Below are positions 1-7,376 of a stretch of 32,241 bases of DNA, in pieces. Under the pieces are notes generated by a model that had not been told where the DNA came from, ran no database searches, and saw only the letters and a list, made by a program, of their open reading frames with translations. Location: assembly GCA_016935235.1 (NCBI GenBank), contig JAFGRJ010000086.1:1-32241 (forward strand), in the 5' to 3' direction. The first letter of the stretch is position 1, and every line of letters starts with the position of its first letter. The position numbers were made by a program, and so were the translations under genes. This DNA is from Candidatus Cloacimonadota bacterium (lineage in GTDB: Bacteria > Cloacimonadota > Cloacimonadia > Cloacimonadales > TCS61).

Positions 1-918
1 CTGGCACAGACTATAATCATTGTAAGCATCAGCATATCTCAGGTAATTTCCCCGATACTTTTTAAACAGGTCTGTCAGATGATGATTGATTATATCCTGA
101 TCACTGACCTTTTTTTTCCGGAGGGCGTTAACTGACCATAATCTGGTGAAGAACTTGTTTAACATGATCATGATAAACGCTGCTGGTTCGTAATTTTCGA
201 TCAGATTTTCCAGGATCTGGAATGCTTTATTACGGTCTCTGATCCCCAGAGCGTCCTGCAGTTCGAATATTGAATTAGCTTTTGTCTTCCCAACGACTGC
301 ATAAACATCATCTTCAGTTATGACGCCTTCATTTTTCTTGAAAAGAATCAGTTTTTCCAGTTCACTGGCTGCCGTTAGAAAATGGCTGTCAATAAGGTTA
401 GCAAGAGTTTCGACAGCTTCACTTTTCATTTTGAGCTTACGTTGCCGGATTTCAGCACGAAGCCACTGGAGGAGATCTTTAGTGCCAAAGGGCTGTCTGC
501 ATTCTATTATAATGCCATTTTCTGTCATGATTTTATTCAATCTTGTCCTGGCGTCGAACTTTTCGCAGGTCAGGACCAGGAGGGAAGTGGGGGACGGAGT
601 ATGCAAATAGGCTTCCAGACCCGGATTATCTACAGATTTGAGCATATCGAAATTTTTTACTACAATAATGCGTTTATCGCTGATAAAGGGCATCATTTCA
701 AGCTGTTCACAAATTTCCAGGGCAGTGGTGTTGTCACCGTACAGAGTAACAAGATCAAATTCCTGCAGGTTCTGTTTGCCGTAGTGTTCAAGAATTGTGT
801 GCAGAATCTGGTCCTTGATGTAGCCTTCACTTCCGAAGATCACGTAGAGCTGGGATGAACGCAGGTTTGAGAATCTCTGCAGAAATTCATAATGACGCAT
901 TATCTTATCTGCTTTCAT
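1..918 (-). CDS. holA: DNA polymerase III subunit delta, 3' end cut by window edge
   Basis: The delta subunit opens the beta sliding clamp within the DnaX clamp-loader complex. The visible 306 codons show the family's N-terminal pattern: a start of the form YEFLQRF, then LYVIFGSEGYIKDQIL, the region around LEMMPFISDKRIIVVKN, and the later part with AASELEKLILF and IFELQDALGIRDRNKAF. Delta proteins are usually about 330-345 residues, so some 30-40 residues are missing past base 1. I chose the ATG at 918 because AGGA lies 7 bases upstream; a second in-frame ATG at 903 has a weaker site. The start overlaps the end of the upstream membrane-protein gene by 14 bases, which suggests translational coupling. 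Assignment rests on overall pattern, since delta has a degenerate ATPase core with no diagnostic motif. Confidence 0.85.
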   Translation of the reverse strand, partial: MKADKIMRHYEFLQRFSNLRSSQLYVIFGSEGYIKDQILHTILEHYGKQNLQEFDLVTLYGDNTTALEICEQLEMMPFISDKRIIVVKNFDMLKSVDNPGLEAYLHTPSPTSLLVLTCEKFDARTRLNKIMTENGIIIECRQPFGTKDLLQWLRAEIRQRKLKMKSEAVETLANLIDSHFLTAASELEKLILFKKNEGVITEDDVYAVVGKTKANSIFELQDALGIRDRNKAFQILENLIENYEPAAFIMIMLNKFFTRLWSVNALRKKKVSDQDIINHHLTDLFKKYRGNYLRYADAYNDYSLCQ

Positions 919-3400
919 TTTTATGTCCTGTTTCCCCCAGGGTCAATTCAGTGAAGATTGAACCCCAGACAGAGAAGATGCAGAAGAAGAAGAGCAGCCA
1001 GATACTGCGGTAAATCATGAATTCATCGTTATTGAGATATTGTTCGATAAATGAAACCAGTACGGTCATAACGAGGCCTCCGGACAGAGACAGCAATAAT
1101 CTCTGCCAGATAATCATACCACCTGCAAATCTTGTCAATAAACTACCTGCCAGGCAGGGCAGGATGACAAGTGCCCACCAGATATCCTTTAATTGAGGTA
1201 GAACCAGGTGGTGCTGTTGCCAGAGGTATTCAATTACGCCCATCAGGAAGCTGCCTAAAATCAGGATGAAGGGTGCATGCCAGATACGGGGAGGGATATT
1301 TCTGCGCCAGGCTTTTCTTTCCTGCATTTGTCTGCGGATAGTAAGAGGCCAGTTGTAGAAAAGTCTAAAAATCCAGTGCTCCAGAAGGGCTCCTTTTTCT
1401 CCGAAGACAGGTATCATATGCACTGCTTCGGTGGCCCAATGACCAGCCATGAAACGGGCCAGGGCAGGATAACGATAAGTCATCTGAATGGGGAAGGCCA
1501 GGTATCCGATATATTTGAAAAAGCTTAGAAAAACAGCAATATTGTAATTACGGAAATCCCTTTCTTTGATAACCAGATAAACAACATACAGTCCCCTGGC
1601 CAGTGATCCCGGTGATATCGGAATCACCTGGAACAGAGCGATGATGCTGAGACCGATAGCCCAGGCTTGAGCTGGAGGGAGTTCAGGGTGTGCCGCAGTA
1701 TAGAGTATGGCAAGCATAACAGATACGATCTGTGTTATAGGGATAGTGCACACATGTACTGCCAGGCTTTTCAGGTATTTCTGGATAAAGGGTTCATCTA
1801 TATGGGATTCGATGGTCATTGCATCATGCCGGGTAAGCATGTTTTTTCTGATACCATCAGCCAGCATATCCCGCAGCCATTTTTCTCTCAGGCTGGAGTT
1901 AAAATACAGTTGTAATGGCCTGATAAAAATATGATGCAGTCTTTGCCGGAAATAAAAACTATCAGTAAGGAACCTGTGGATGCTGGTAGGAAGAACAGAA
2001 AGGAGGCAGTGGATAAAATAGGCAATGACCTTACTTTCGATTCCAGCTATCTGCTGTGGCTTGATCCTGCGGGAGATTAACCAGTGGGAAAGGTTCTGCA
2101 GGAGGTTGGCTTTCCAGGTCAGACGAAGATAATGAAATGATGATGCCATTTTCCACAGGTGTTCTCTCTGCAGTGAGTTACAGGAGAATTTTATCAGAGC
2201 CTTGCCCAGCAGGGGTATAAATCCAGCAAGAAAGAGCAAAAAGGTGAGAAACATTGTTTTCTGCAGCTTATCTCCTGCTGTCTTATCGCAGATACCCGTG
2301 ATCTGCCAGCTTCTGATGGAGTTAACCAGGATCACCCGCCATAAACAACGGCTGTGAAATACCCTGATGTGATTATGGGTAATATCGATCTGGGAATTTC
2401 TATATTCTGCCTCCTGTTCCTGCAATTCGGACCGGAGTGCAGCCATATCTGCAAAATCCTGAGGGTGCTTATCCATGAAGGTTGCCAGTTTTTTAAGATT
2501 TCCCCGGTCGAACTGGACGATACTGCCTCTCAGGATTCCTCTGATGATTATAGAAAAGTCACCGGGGCTCATGGGCAGGAAGGGGAGCAGAGCAAGTCCT
2601 GCCCGGAAGTCGACTGCCACCAGGCCGGAGGCAGGATCATCGTTGGTGCTGTTCCTTTTCAGGCAGTTAGGCTGACTTTTCATGGTTGACCATTCATATT
2701 GACGGGCAATCTCACTGGCGCCGATTTCATGGAGAAGATCAACCAGTGCATGCATGAACCTGAATTTGGCTTTGAATTCAGGAGAATATTTTTCCCAAAG
2801 ATCTTTTTTATCTGTTTTCAGACTTCCAGACAAGAAATTGATCCGGTCGTCTGCTTCGAGTCGCCAGGTTCTGCCGTCAATCCACTCCAGCAGTTCTCCG
2901 CAACTGCCAAGATCATGGTCAATAAGGGTTCCCAGGATATCTGTGACATATTTATCGGAGCCAAATCTAATCCGGGCAGCTCGATGGATAAATTTCTGCC
3001 AGAGGGCGCCAGCCCTTGCTGCAGCGGGATTAACCTGTAATTGAAAAGGAGCCTGGAATCCGATTCGGTAAAGCAGATTACGAAATAATCTGGCCAGGAA
3101 TGTGGGGGGAATAAGTATTTTCAAGGCATAGGAATTATTTATCTGCAAAAGAGAGGAAGGGTTATTGCTATTATGTTTCAGGAGCTTGACCTGGTAAACC
3201 TGTCCTGCAAAGCCTCCTCCGACAAAATCAGTTACCTGAAGGGTAATACGAAGCGTATTTTCCCCGGCACCGAATGTTTTCAGATCATAGTTGAGTATGG
3301 AACCGGGCAGATACCGGAAATATTTATAGGGGCGCAATACGCCCAGGGAGATGAATTTTTGGTGAAGTTGCTCAAAATATTTCAAGACGGGTTCATCCAT
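905..3400 (-). CDS. Kinase-like domain fused to a polytopic membrane protein
   Basis: Function unknown. Residues about 55-275 look like a protein-kinase fold: glycine-rich loop VGGGFAGQVY (60-69), lysine strand YALKIL (91-96, Lys94), a hinge-like LLEWIDGRTW (170-179), SQPN with Asn245, and VDFRAG with Asp264 in the DFG position. No HRD-type catalytic aspartate is visible before Asn245 (the local sequence is EWSTMKSQPN), so this may be a pseudokinase or an atypical kinase. After a charged stretch (about 300-340), hydrophobic segments follow near 383-402, 456-472, 548-570, 580-596, 603-612, 621-640, 709-728, 740-757, 764-786 and 799-816, so the C-terminal 450 residues look membrane-embedded. 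There is no signal peptide, and the kinase-like part should be cytoplasmic. It begins 13 bases after the deacetylase gene and overlaps holA by 14 bases. Envelope polysaccharide or lipid handling is a guess from the neighbour. The kinase resemblance is by motif only. Confidence 0.75.
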   Translation of the reverse strand: MDEPVLKYFEQLHQKFISLGVLRPYKYFRYLPGSILNYDLKTFGAGENTLRITLQVTDFVGGGFAGQVYQVKLLKHNSNNPSSLLQINNSYALKILIPPTFLARLFRNLLYRIGFQAPFQLQVNPAAARAGALWQKFIHRAARIRFGSDKYVTDILGTLIDHDLGSCGELLEWIDGRTWRLEADDRINFLSGSLKTDKKDLWEKYSPEFKAKFRFMHALVDLLHEIGASEIARQYEWSTMKSQPNCLKRNSTNDDPASGLVAVDFRAGLALLPFLPMSPGDFSIIIRGILRGSIVQFDRGNLKKLATFMDKHPQDFADMAALRSELQEQEAEYRNSQIDITHNHIRVFHSRCLWRVILVNSIRSWQITGICDKTAGDKLQKTMFLTFLLFLAGFIPLLGKALIKFSCNSLQREHLWKMASSFHYLRLTWKANLLQNLSHWLISRRIKPQQIAGIESKVIAYFIHCLLSVLPTSIHRFLTDSFYFRQRLHHIFIRPLQLYFNSSLREKWLRDMLADGIRKNMLTRHDAMTIESHIDEPFIQKYLKSLAVHVCTIPITQIVSVMLAILYTAAHPELPPAQAWAIGLSIIALFQVIPISPGSLARGLYVVYLVIKERDFRNYNIAVFLSFFKYIGYLAFPIQMTYRYPALARFMAGHWATEAVHMIPVFGEKGALLEHWIFRLFYNWPLTIRRQMQERKAWRRNIPPRIWHAPFILILGSFLMGVIEYLWQQHHLVLPQLKDIWWALVILPCLAGSLLTRFAGGMIIWQRLLLSLSGGLVMTVLVSFIEQYLNNDEFMIYRSIWLLFFFCIFSVWGSIFTELTLGETGHKNESR

Positions 3401-3413
3401 GAAAAAAGTCCAA

Positions 3414-4601
3414 TCAGAGGATTTCCGGTAATTCAGACTGGAATAGAGCGGAGACAGGGACTATTTGGAAATTCAGTTTGGTTATTTCAGCAATGAATTT
3501 TTTCAGGTATTCATAATGTTTACTGGAAGCGCAATGTGATATGACCAGCATCTTCTCCCTGGAATTGCTGAGTTTCTGTAGCCTGTCCAGCTTGATCTGC
3601 AGTGTATTACCGGAGATGGTTGGGGTATCAAGGAAAAGTGTATTCTCGAAGGCAGGGATCATCATATCCATTGCCATCTTATAAGCGATTGACTCCTGGG
3701 TTGTCCGGCTGTCGACGAAATAGAGGCCGTTCTTTTTGAGAACACTGAGCACAGCGTTCATCACATCTCTGTCTGCCGTTGCGAGGGAGCCCATGTGATT
3801 ATTGGCACCAACACATAGAGGAAGGTTTTTCAGATAACCCTGGACTCTTTTCCTGATCTCTCCGCTGCTGTTGTGAGTATAGATAGCATCAGGGCCTGGA
3901 TCTATCTTAGGGTAGTTAAGGGGTTCCATTGGCATATGAATGATTATTTCGTGACCCGTTGCTGCAGCTCTGTTCATTACAGTGCGAGAATATTTCAAAT
4001 GAGGCAGGATGGCGAAGGTGACATTTGAATCGAGGCTGCAGAAAGCTTCCAGCAATTCTCCCTCGTAATAGCCGAAATCATCGACTACAATCGCCAGTTT
4101 TATTTGCCCGGATTTGTCTTTCTGGCTGTAGCGAGTGTAGTAGAGATTGACTGTATGGGAAATGGAATCAGCCTTGTCTTTGTATTCCAGAATCTGACGG
4201 TTACTGTTATTGGTTTCCAGTCCCTTTATTACCTGACCGCCAACGATTTCTACCTGACCGGTGATGATACTGTTGGCAAAATTAAGGTCCATGATATTAC
4301 TGTCTATGCCAATAGTATAGGAGATATTATTACTTTTCTTATTGATACTGTATTTATTATCCGGTACTCCCAGCAGTATTCTGGCATGATCGATAGCTTC
4401 AGTGATGGTCCTGGATTTATCTATATTCTGGGCGGGTACCTGAGACACTTTATATTTTGAGCGAAAAGGCATATTGACACGGTTATTAACCAGGAAATAA
4501 AGGACAAGAAGCAATAAAATTACAAAAAGAAAGGTATAGATCTGTTTTCTATCTGTTTTCTTCTTTCTGCGAATATTTTTTCTTCTTGTTTTTTTAAGCA
4601 T
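3414..4601 (-). CDS. Divergent polysaccharide deacetylase family protein (YibQ-like)
   Basis: This 395-residue protein has a very basic N-terminus (KKTRRKNIRRKKK), one membrane anchor (about 21-38) and a periplasmic C-terminal domain of the divergent polysaccharide deacetylase family (Pfam PF04748). Visible family motifs are LAIVVDDFGYY with Asp173-Asp174, FAILPHL, IIIHMPMEP (His222), GANNHMGS (His269) and LYFVDSRTTQES. The family shares the NodB fold, but its substrate is not established; a role in cell-wall or surface glycan processing is an inference. Residues about 50-165 form an N-terminal region I do not recognise. The ATG at 4601 has GGGAG 6 bases upstream. It is the first gene of a probable three-gene unit with the kinase-like membrane protein and holA. 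Confidence 0.85.
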   Translation of the reverse strand: MLKKTRRKNIRRKKKTDRKQIYTFLFVILLLLVLYFLVNNRVNMPFRSKYKVSQVPAQNIDKSRTITEAIDHARILLGVPDNKYSINKKSNNISYTIGIDSNIMDLNFANSIITGQVEIVGGQVIKGLETNNSNRQILEYKDKADSISHTVNLYYTRYSQKDKSGQIKLAIVVDDFGYYEGELLEAFCSLDSNVTFAILPHLKYSRTVMNRAAATGHEIIIHMPMEPLNYPKIDPGPDAIYTHNSSGEIRKRVQGYLKNLPLCVGANNHMGSLATADRDVMNAVLSVLKKNGLYFVDSRTTQESIAYKMAMDMMIPAFENTLFLDTPTISGNTLQIKLDRLQKLSNSREKMLVISHCASSKHYEYLKKFIAEITKLNFQIVPVSALFQSELPEIL

Positions 4602-4852: not shown

Positions 4853-4928
4853 TGGTGGGCGCTGAGGGACTTGAACCCCCGACCACCTGCTTGTAAGGCA
4901 GGCGCTCTCCCAACTGAGCTAAACGCCC
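4853..4928 (-). tRNA. tRNA-Val (anticodon UAC)
   Basis: The minus strand folds as a 76-base cloverleaf with encoded CCA. The acceptor stem is GGGCGTT with AGCGCCC, the D arm contains TAGCTCAGTTGGGAGAGC, the anticodon arm is CCTGC-CTTACAA-GCAGG, and the T arm contains GGTTCAAGTCC. The anticodon TAC (UAC) reads GUA and, with wobble, other valine codons. An eight-T run begins one base after CCA, which may act as the transcript end. It lies 68 bases after tRNA-Pro on the same strand. Confidence 0.96.
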
Positions 4929-4995
4929 TTTCGAGATGATAGAGAAATTTTTTTATTTCTCTTTGCTGTCAATTCTTTTTTCCGTATCCAGTACA

Positions 4996-5074
<79 letters not shown>

Positions 5075-5135: not shown

Positions 5136-7376
5136 TCAGAAGGTGGTGCCAAATTGAAAATGAGGTTCCCAGGTGTTTTCATCCAGGTTATAGGCATAAT
5201 CGAATCCGATGAGGCCAAAGGGACTGCGCACTCGCAATCCGAGGCCGGTGCCCTTCTTCATGGTCCAGAAATTGAATTTTTTCAGGCTGTTATAGCTGTC
5301 TCCCGCATCGAAGAAAAGGAGGCCAACAACCTGATCGCCAGCGATCGGCACCCCCAGTTCGGTGGAGAATAATATCTCGCGCAGACCACCTTCATCTGGT
5401 CCAACGGATCTGTCTGCATATCCCCTGATGCCATCCGGACCTGTCCCTCCCAGGTAGAAACGTTCATCGGGAGGAACATCCTTACCTCCATAACCAGTAA
5501 CGTAACCAAAACGCCACTTCGTTCTCAGAGCCAGTTCCCAGACGGTTTTGGAAAACCAGCTGACCTGGAGAATCTGTTTGAAGTAGTTAAAGTCACCCTG
5601 CAGCAGACCACCGGCAAACTCATTATAAATTGTGAATTGTGAGCCACTCGTAGGGAAAAAGATATTGTCACGGCTGTCTCGAGAAAAGGTCAGTGATAGG
5701 GCGCTCGTGTTCTGCCAGCCCTTGGCGTCGAGTTCCTGCAGGTTATTGGAGGCTTCGTCTTCCTCTCCTTTCAGGATGGAGTACCTTTTTGAATAAAGTG
5801 AATATCCGCCGACCAGCCGGGAATAATTCAGAAAACCCAGAGGATGTCCGAACCTTATTGATCCTCCGTTGGTCCTTACTTTATAAGTTTCCCATTCCTT
5901 TGTGGTATGATAAATATCGAAACCCATCAGTGTTGCGCTATCCATGAAATAGGGATTGGTGAAGTTAAAGCTGAAATTCTGGGTTTTCCCGCCAAATTCC
6001 CATTGTGCTCCTGCCTGCCAGGAATTACCAAAAAGGTTATTGTGTGATACGGCGAGTTGACCGACCAGCCCTTCCTGGCTGTTCAAGGCAACGCCACCGT
6101 TCGCTGAGCCCGACACCTTGTCGGTGAGATTGATGGTTATATCGATGTCACCGTTACGGTTTATGGGAGCGGAGGGTTCGGGATAAAGGTCAGGCTCGAA
6201 AAAACCCATGTTGTAGATATTGGACAATGTGCGGCGTAGTTTGGATTGCTGGTAGTAGTCACCCGGTGAAATTGCCAGGTGCCGTCGGATGATTTTCTCC
6301 TTGGTCTTGCGGTTCCCGGTGATGAATATTTTCCTGATCCTGGCTCTGGTATTCTCATTGATATCGAGTCTGATGTTGATATGATCGTCTTTCTTCTCCA
6401 GTTCGTGATCAAAATTGGAATAGATATAACCGTCTTCATAATACATGGCGGCAACACCGGAAAGCTGATCGTTGAATTTCTGCAGATTAAAGGTTTCATC
6501 TTCTTTGAATTTGAACTGGGAAGTTATCACCTCATCTGTAAAACGCTTGTTACCTGTAACAGAGACCTGCCCGAATTTATAGGAATCTCCTTCATAGAGG
6601 TAGATATCCAGAGCAAAACCATCTTCCTTGATGGTTTTATCCCAGGAAATAATTCTGGCATCGACAAATCCTTTCCTGTTGTAATATTCCACGATAAGAT
6701 CGAGATCCTGCTCAAATTTATCCTGCTCGAATTTGCCAGAACGGAACAGGCTGGCTTTCTTGGTTTTCATTTTTCCCAGGAGTTTCTTTTCCGGTATATC
6801 CTTGTTCCCATGGATGTTGATGGTACGAATCACAATCTTGCTGCCTTCCTGGATGATTATATTGAGATCAACAGCGTTATTAGTCTTCTCCAGGACTTCG
6901 AAATCGATCTGAGCCAGATGATAGCCTTTCTGCTTGTACTCATCAGCAATTTTCTTCTTAACCTCTTCCTGCAGGAAAGGAGACCAGTAATTACCCAGGT
7001 TCAGGGAGAGCAGTTCTTCCAGTTTTGCTGTCTTGATTTTATCATTTCCCTGGAAAGTTACATTTTCGATGAGGGGATACTCTGCGATGTCGATATGTAT
7101 AATAATCCCTGCTGGTAACTGTTCCCGGGAAATCAGGATATCTTTGAAGACTGCTAACTGGTAAAGGTCCTTGATAGTCTTGGCAACATCAGCATCATCT
7201 AGAATATCTCCTATCTGAAATACGATGAAGGACCTGATCAATTCGGTGTCAATATTGACATTGCCATTGACTTTAATATCCAGAATGAGATTGCTGCTGA
7301 ATTCGTCTTCTGCCCCAAGTACAACAGGGATTATTATCAGAAGCAGTAATAATCCTCTCCAACTGGTTCTTAACAT
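5136..7376 (-). CDS. bamA: Outer membrane protein assembly factor BamA (Omp85 family)
   Basis: BamA folds and inserts beta-barrel proteins into the outer membrane. The 746-residue protein starts with a signal peptide (SWRGLLLLLIIIPVVLGA, cut near residue 21-22). Five POTRA domains follow, at roughly 30-100, 101-180, 181-262, 263-342 and 343-420, each with the VTFQGN, INIHGN, VSVTGN or IFITGN type strand. The 16-strand barrel covers about 424-746. The loop-6 signature appears as GTGPDGIRGYADRSVGP, matching the (V/I)RGY/F motif, and the last residue is Phe, as in the beta signal. The ATG at 7376 has GGGAGG 4 bases upstream. Unlike many genomes, no skp/ompH or lpxD gene lies next to it: two tRNA genes follow and the rimP operon diverges upstream. 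Confidence 0.95.
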   Translation of the reverse strand: MLRTSWRGLLLLLIIIPVVLGAEDEFSSNLILDIKVNGNVNIDTELIRSFIVFQIGDILDDADVAKTIKDLYQLAVFKDILISREQLPAGIIIHIDIAEYPLIENVTFQGNDKIKTAKLEELLSLNLGNYWSPFLQEEVKKKIADEYKQKGYHLAQIDFEVLEKTNNAVDLNIIIQEGSKIVIRTINIHGNKDIPEKKLLGKMKTKKASLFRSGKFEQDKFEQDLDLIVEYYNRKGFVDARIISWDKTIKEDGFALDIYLYEGDSYKFGQVSVTGNKRFTDEVITSQFKFKEDETFNLQKFNDQLSGVAAMYYEDGYIYSNFDHELEKKDDHINIRLDINENTRARIRKIFITGNRKTKEKIIRRHLAISPGDYYQQSKLRRTLSNIYNMGFFEPDLYPEPSAPINRNGDIDITINLTDKVSGSANGGVALNSQEGLVGQLAVSHNNLFGNSWQAGAQWEFGGKTQNFSFNFTNPYFMDSATLMGFDIYHTTKEWETYKVRTNGGSIRFGHPLGFLNYSRLVGGYSLYSKRYSILKGEEDEASNNLQELDAKGWQNTSALSLTFSRDSRDNIFFPTSGSQFTIYNEFAGGLLQGDFNYFKQILQVSWFSKTVWELALRTKWRFGYVTGYGGKDVPPDERFYLGGTGPDGIRGYADRSVGPDEGGLREILFSTELGVPIAGDQVVGLLFFDAGDSYNSLKKFNFWTMKKGTGLGLRVRSPFGLIGFDYAYNLDENTWEPHFQFGTTF

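Follow-up and report, generated by a model that had tools for sequence, protein, structure and literature searches.

KIN, an unnamed family of kinase-like membrane proteins, probably substitutes for UppP/BacA in Cloacimonadota and other bacteria

Recycling of the lipid carrier and the KIN locus

The lipid carrier used in the building of the bacterial cell wall is normally recycled by the enzyme UppP/BacA. This carrier, undecaprenyl phosphate (C55-P), serves peptidoglycan and other envelope polymers, and the dephosphorylation of undecaprenyl diphosphate (C55-PP) is an essential and drug-relevant step. The established role of BacA is that of a phosphatase converting C55-PP to C55-P, and BacA and PAP2 are the two families generally credited with this reaction (PMC5088576). 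The re-entrant helices of BacA contain Pro/Ser/Gly loops (FLPVSS and WPGFS), and an arginine is its putative catalytic residue (PMC5852022).

The window, i.e., the whole stretch of 32,241 nucleotides analysed here, is an entire contig of a Cloacimonadota genome (2.23 Mb in 221 contigs). It encodes a protein of kinase-like and membrane parts, to which we gave the working name KIN (Table 1). The KIN gene overlaps by 14 bases with a gene named holA on the basis of the first-pass annotation and its conserved context, and is separated by 13 bases from the gene of a Polysacc_deac_2 protein (PDA2). A BamA/Omp85 gene lies at positions 5136-7376 of the minus strand, followed by RimP and NusA genes on the plus strand; the genes of tRNA-Val and tRNA-Pro (4853-5074) are placed between the deacetylase gene and bamA.

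The KIN of the window has no match in Pfam at E<1 and no credible match in NCBIfam, no family of these two collections matched the other KIN members tested, and a sequence search of the PDB with KIN profiles gave no meaningful match. The first-pass annotation had known of no named family with such an architecture, and we found no earlier description of the family in the open-licence literature.

KIN has homologues, 39-55% identical to it, in about ten phyla. At least 298 relatives were revealed by scanning named genomes; of these, 80, nearly full length and 47-55% identical, were kept. They are labelled as Cloacimonadota, Desulfobacterota and other deltaproteobacteria, and Planctomycetota (Phycisphaerae, Sedimentisphaerales), as well as Latescibacterota, Fibrobacterota, Aminicenantes, KSB1, SAR324, Acidobacteria and others; most genomes in the survey are metagenome-assembled (MAGs). 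The alignment used below (n=99) comprises 79 sequences of one scan and 20 sequences, down to 39% identity, that were mostly fetched by profile. Since the first 79 were gathered with patterns spanning the glycine-rich loop and the KSQPNCLK motif, the conservation of these two regions is partly due to selection; residues K94, E230, E236 and D264 lie outside the collection patterns, and the 20 added members come from profile searches.

In the KIN tree the sequences cluster roughly by phylum, with some mixing, and those of Cloacimonadota make up a single group, nested among others, to which two MAGs labelled Armatimonadota also contribute. The loci of these two MAGs (L019 and L020, titled Armatimonadota/Armatimonadetes) have the BamA, PDA2, KIN gene order of Cloacimonadota, and the MAGs are probably misnamed. 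In two members from unrelated phyla, a Cloacimonadota one (L031:4301-6799) and a deltaproteobacterial one (L095:9989-12484), the reading frame is interrupted once, by TAA and TAG, respectively. Both stops fall in one and the same column of the alignment, around window residue 430, and the remainder of the aligned sequence is intact; this may reflect a coincidence, a natural split or recoding.

Table 1. Positions in the window of the KIN gene, its flanking genes and the regions of the KIN protein
Feature	Positions	Strand	Basis and conservation
KIN, 831 aa, kinase-like + membrane protein	905..3400	-	ORF; full-length homologues in about ten phyla
Polysacc_deac_2 gene (PDA2)	3414-4601	-	Pfam E 9e-66; upstream flank of the slot; adjoins KIN or BacA, conserved
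holA (DNA polymerase III delta)	1-918	-	Open at contig start; downstream flank
Kinase-like domain, residues 49-290	2531..3256	-	AlphaFold, Foldseek; hhalign to Pkinase profile E 2.4e-4
Glycine-rich loop GGGFAGQVY, residues 61-69	3194..3220	-	Near-invariant; aligns with Pkinase G-loop
Lys94, VAIK-type lysine, in YALKIL	3119..3121	-	98/98
Hinge-like ELLEWIDGRTW, residues 169-179	2864..2896	-	W173, G176, R177 99/99; opposite Pkinase hinge in extended hhalign alignment
Degenerate catalytic loop without HRD Asp, residues 227-248	2657..2722	-	E230, R233, K241, Q243, N245, K248 99/99
DFR replacing DFG, residues 264-266	2603..2611	-	D264 99/99
Conserved core of membrane half, residues 531-706	1283..1810	-	Mean column conservation 0.79-0.80, equal to kinase active-site regions
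SPGSxxRG motif, residues 596-603	1592..1615	-	S596, P597, G598, S599, R602, G603 99/99; predicted break between two membrane helices (model)
C-terminal four-helix membrane stretch, residues 707-820	941..1282	-	Poorly conserved, mean 0.47

The kinase-like and membrane parts of KIN

The family alignment and structure predictions support the assignment of the N-terminal part of KIN as a highly altered kinase-like domain, in which the nucleotide-site residues are kept and the catalytic base is lost. The first-pass annotation had recognised here, in the order of a protein kinase, a glycine-rich loop, Lys94, a hinge-like LLEWIDGRTW (within GELLEWIDGRTW, residues 168-179), Asn245 and a DFG-like DFRAG, and had pointed out the missing HRD-type Asp; both observations were borne out. 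Lys94, Asn245 (in KSQPNCLK) and Asp264 (in VAVDFRAG) are invariant down to 39% identity, which argues that the kinase motifs are not a matter of chance. Gly268 is conserved in 99/99 and Glu236 in 98/99 of the aligned sequences, and the canonical DFG is found in two divergent members (L226 and L229). The position of the HRD Asp (residue 240, five before Asn245) is occupied by C in 80 of the 99 sequences, W in 9, A in 5, M in 3, L in 1 and another residue in the remaining one, but never by Asp.

AlphaFold models of this domain (residues 1-345: pLDDT 81, pTM 0.84) present beta1-beta3, helices, beta4-beta5, the hinge, the catalytic loop and beta7-beta8 in the kinase order. Every one of the best 50 Foldseek matches in the PDB is a protein kinase (prob 0.96-1.00; E<=0.001 for 49 of them), but at TM values of only 0.24-0.38, so the global similarity is weak and the overall domain is much altered. 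A comparison with the Pkinase profile by hhalign gave a weak local match over the glycine-rich loop and the lysine (prob 44%), as compared with 0.2% for a membrane-protein control. Membership of the UbiB/ABC1 family (PF03109) was rejected (hhalign prob 0.5%, no Pfam match). The domain is probably cytoplasmic, as no signal or membrane segment is predicted ahead of it.

The elements that KIN shares in order with the Ser/Thr kinases (PF00069), from the glycine-rich loop to the DFG Asp, are accompanied by differences: the lack of the HRD Asp and of a Pfam match, a TM of about 0.3, no conserved alpha-C Glu (none in the predicted helix 125-146 in the alignment and AlphaFold model), and a longer catalytic loop, in which Gly227 and Asn245 are separated by 18 residues, as opposed to about 10 in the equivalent segment of usual kinases. 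Bacterial pseudokinases of the ActPs1-3, GLW, CP1, DYD and DLHK families, considered as relatives and rejected, are described in the passages compared as degraded in ATP/metal motifs (PMC12599244). By these descriptions, KIN is set apart from them, as it lost only the HRD Asp of the three catalytic motifs.

In the case of the membrane half, family-averaged hydropathy indicates about eight segments, near residues 390, 555, 590-600, 630, 715, 745, 775 and 805. The first-pass annotation rightly noticed this half, but its estimate of about 450 residues of membrane segments was too strong, since residues 409-530 are helical and not clearly membrane-spanning. Matches to several divergent members stop near residue 694-712. 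The LPG_synthase_TM/MprF-type flippases (PF03706) have, like KIN, a PGS/PGG-type motif ahead of a membrane helix; the membrane half shows no profile similarity to them (hhalign prob 0.4-0.6%). Likewise, its interpretation as a divergent BacA has no profile support (hhalign prob 0.5%): the KIN of the window has no PF02673 match, and the EFLPxSS and PGxSRS motifs are absent from 99/99 KIN members. The PAP2 (PF01569) signature K-x6-RP ... PSGH ... SR-x5-H is found in 0/99. The Pro/Ser/Gly/Arg loop of KIN at a predicted helix break recalls the re-entrant loops of BacA (PMC5852022), but this likeness is only a lead, because the profile comparison reveals no homology. KIN is three times as large as BacA and, unlike it, contains a kinase-like domain. 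What the two have in common is that they are integral membrane proteins, occupy the same gene slots and exclude each other nearly completely.

Distribution and gene slots of KIN and BacA

The distribution survey covered KIN and BacA (PF02673). Among 125 Cloacimonadota genomes, a profile search identified KIN in 16 and BacA in 100, both in 0 and neither in 9 (p 3e-14 for zero overlap by chance, kinship ignored). In the case of Phycisphaerae (n=248), KIN is present in 55 genomes, BacA in 189, both in 0 and neither in 4 (p 8e-51, kinship ignored), so that 244 of the 248 have exactly one of the two. Kinship among the genomes inflates these counts. The Phycisphaerae matches are nearly all strong and long, which indicates that the KIN family is discrete. 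Of 49 KIN genomes sampled across many phyla (41 outside Cloacimonadota and Phycisphaerae), 45 lack BacA and four contain both genes (loci L021, L033, L060 and L087 of genomes G387, G125, G405 and G414, respectively; L033 is on a single-contig chromosome). These four are possibly intermediates of exchange.

The exclusion has a counterpart in gene order. The first-pass annotation had suggested that the deacetylase gene, KIN and holA form a conserved envelope unit. This pointed in the right direction, as the PDA2-KIN-holA order is kept in Cloacimonadota wherever the flanks reach, with the exception of genome G117 of a second family (f13), where a single additional gene precedes holA, but in relatives the same slot holds uppP/bacA. 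In KIN-negative Cloacimonadota of the same family with enough flank, BacA lies between PDA2 and holA, and PF02673 matches adjoin HolA matches, confirming its presence in the slot. In the f13 family, the PDA2-KIN-x-HolA-Era order of G117 corresponds to PDA2-BacA-x-HolA-Era in its sisters. On the HolA tree the state of the slot switches 7 times by parsimony, and at least 4 of these switches are forced by supported branches.

A second, unrelated operon was found in Phycisphaerae, where KIN follows pgpA (PF04608, E 4e-34) in 21 loci, and where the order dGTPase-PgpA-KIN-c4-c2-PurA is matched in genome G308 by dGTPase-PgpA-BacA(inverted)-c4-c2-PurA; PgpA adjoins BacA in three further BacA genomes sampled. 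In Planctomycetota, the KIN neighbourhood includes pgpA, a UppS-like gene and a cdsA-like gene. As a discriminating partner PgpA was rejected: it is present in 12/15 genomes and common everywhere, and therefore its adjacency alone says little. Downstream of KIN or BacA, the pgpA-purA neighbourhood of Phycisphaerae contains two conserved genes of no Pfam family (L029:7477-7983, about 170 aa, and L081:6936-7745, about 270 aa). A phosphomannomutase/phosphoglucomutase-like gene, identified by eye, adjoins KIN in loci L028, L037, L039, L040, L075 and L096, which belong to Desulfobacterota, Aminicenantes and an Acidobacteria bin.

Repeated switches within one slot, found in each of two unrelated operons, resemble an exchange of functionally equivalent genes, and the replacement of UppP by KIN is well supported. 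The exclusion could also be a by-product of lineage history, with KIN serving an unrelated envelope function and BacA having been lost otherwise; related genomes are not independent, and four genomes have both genes. Such an explanation is extremely unlikely in view of the repeated switching of the slot in two different operons and of the Phycisphaerae genomes, almost all of which have exactly one of the two genes.

Proposed function of KIN

As BacA converts C55-PP to C55-P and KIN takes its place, KIN can be inferred to meet the same need, and we consider it likely that it replaces UppP/BacA as a functional but non-homologous substitute, returning C55-PP to C55-P. The reaction proposed for it would be common also to the PAP2-type C55-PP phosphatases (PgpB, BcrC type), and other enzymes may share this job in KIN genomes. 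The kinase-like domain, presumed cytoplasmic, retains the residues that usually bind nucleotide and metal (Lys94, Asn245 and Asp264) and lacks the catalytic base, and the membrane domain fused to it, with its invariant SPGSxxRG motif, may bind the lipid diphosphate. The retention of the three residues without the base is compatible with a regulatory nucleotide switch acting on a membrane phosphatase, or with a phosphotransfer in which a nucleotide takes the phosphate of the lipid diphosphate and for which an activated alcohol would not be needed. KIN may thus bind a nucleotide, either of its parts may perform the chemistry, and this chemistry may be hydrolysis, phosphotransfer or flipping.

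A specific form of the phosphotransfer would be a kinase fold working in reverse, in which the terminal phosphate of C55-PP is passed to ADP or another nucleotide to give C55-P and ATP. Such a reaction would account for the retention of the nucleotide- and metal-binding residues and for the loss of the base, which is needed to activate an alcohol acceptor. The energy of the anhydride bond would be saved, which could pay in anaerobic sediment lineages, from which many KIN bearers come; nevertheless, we regard this particular reaction as doubtful. Alternatively, KIN could be an active lipid kinase and supply C55-P to the pool, for instance by phosphorylation of undecaprenol, relying on the invariant Lys, Asn and Asp in kinase-like order and on E230 (99/99) or E236 (98/99) as the base. 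However, the usual base position carries no acidic residue, and dephosphorylation of C55-PP would still be needed, so the loss of BacA would not be explained; we find this reading very improbable.

The large membrane domain raises another alternative to a C55-PP-dephosphorylating KIN, namely a pseudokinase-gated flippase of C55-P (or C55-PP), which would replace a transport role of BacA and leave the phosphatase step to PAP2 enzymes. The fold of BacA is itself transporter-like, with an inverted repeat, and a flippase role has been proposed for this protein (PMC5852022), although its established role is that of a phosphatase (PMC5088576). Envelope proteins in which a pseudokinase-like domain is fused to a membrane protein of envelope lipids do exist, as exemplified by mycobacterial MviN, whose membrane part is MurJ (PMC12599244). 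The MviN kinase domain belongs to the ActPs3 family, and all its motifs are described as degraded and its ATP/Mg binding as deficient (PMC12599244). In KIN, by contrast, the kinase-like domain stands at the N-terminus and the residues of its nucleotide site do not vary, and a flippase of this kind appears unlikely.

Altogether, KIN is an unnamed, strictly conserved family and probably an unrecognised substitute for UppP/BacA. If C55-PP dephosphorylation is indeed its role, it would be a third family for this step, kinase-like and spread over about ten phyla, and would explain how many bacteria that lack BacA manage. A conserved unannotated protein would thereby gain a function, and an unexpected fold would enter the C55-PP step.
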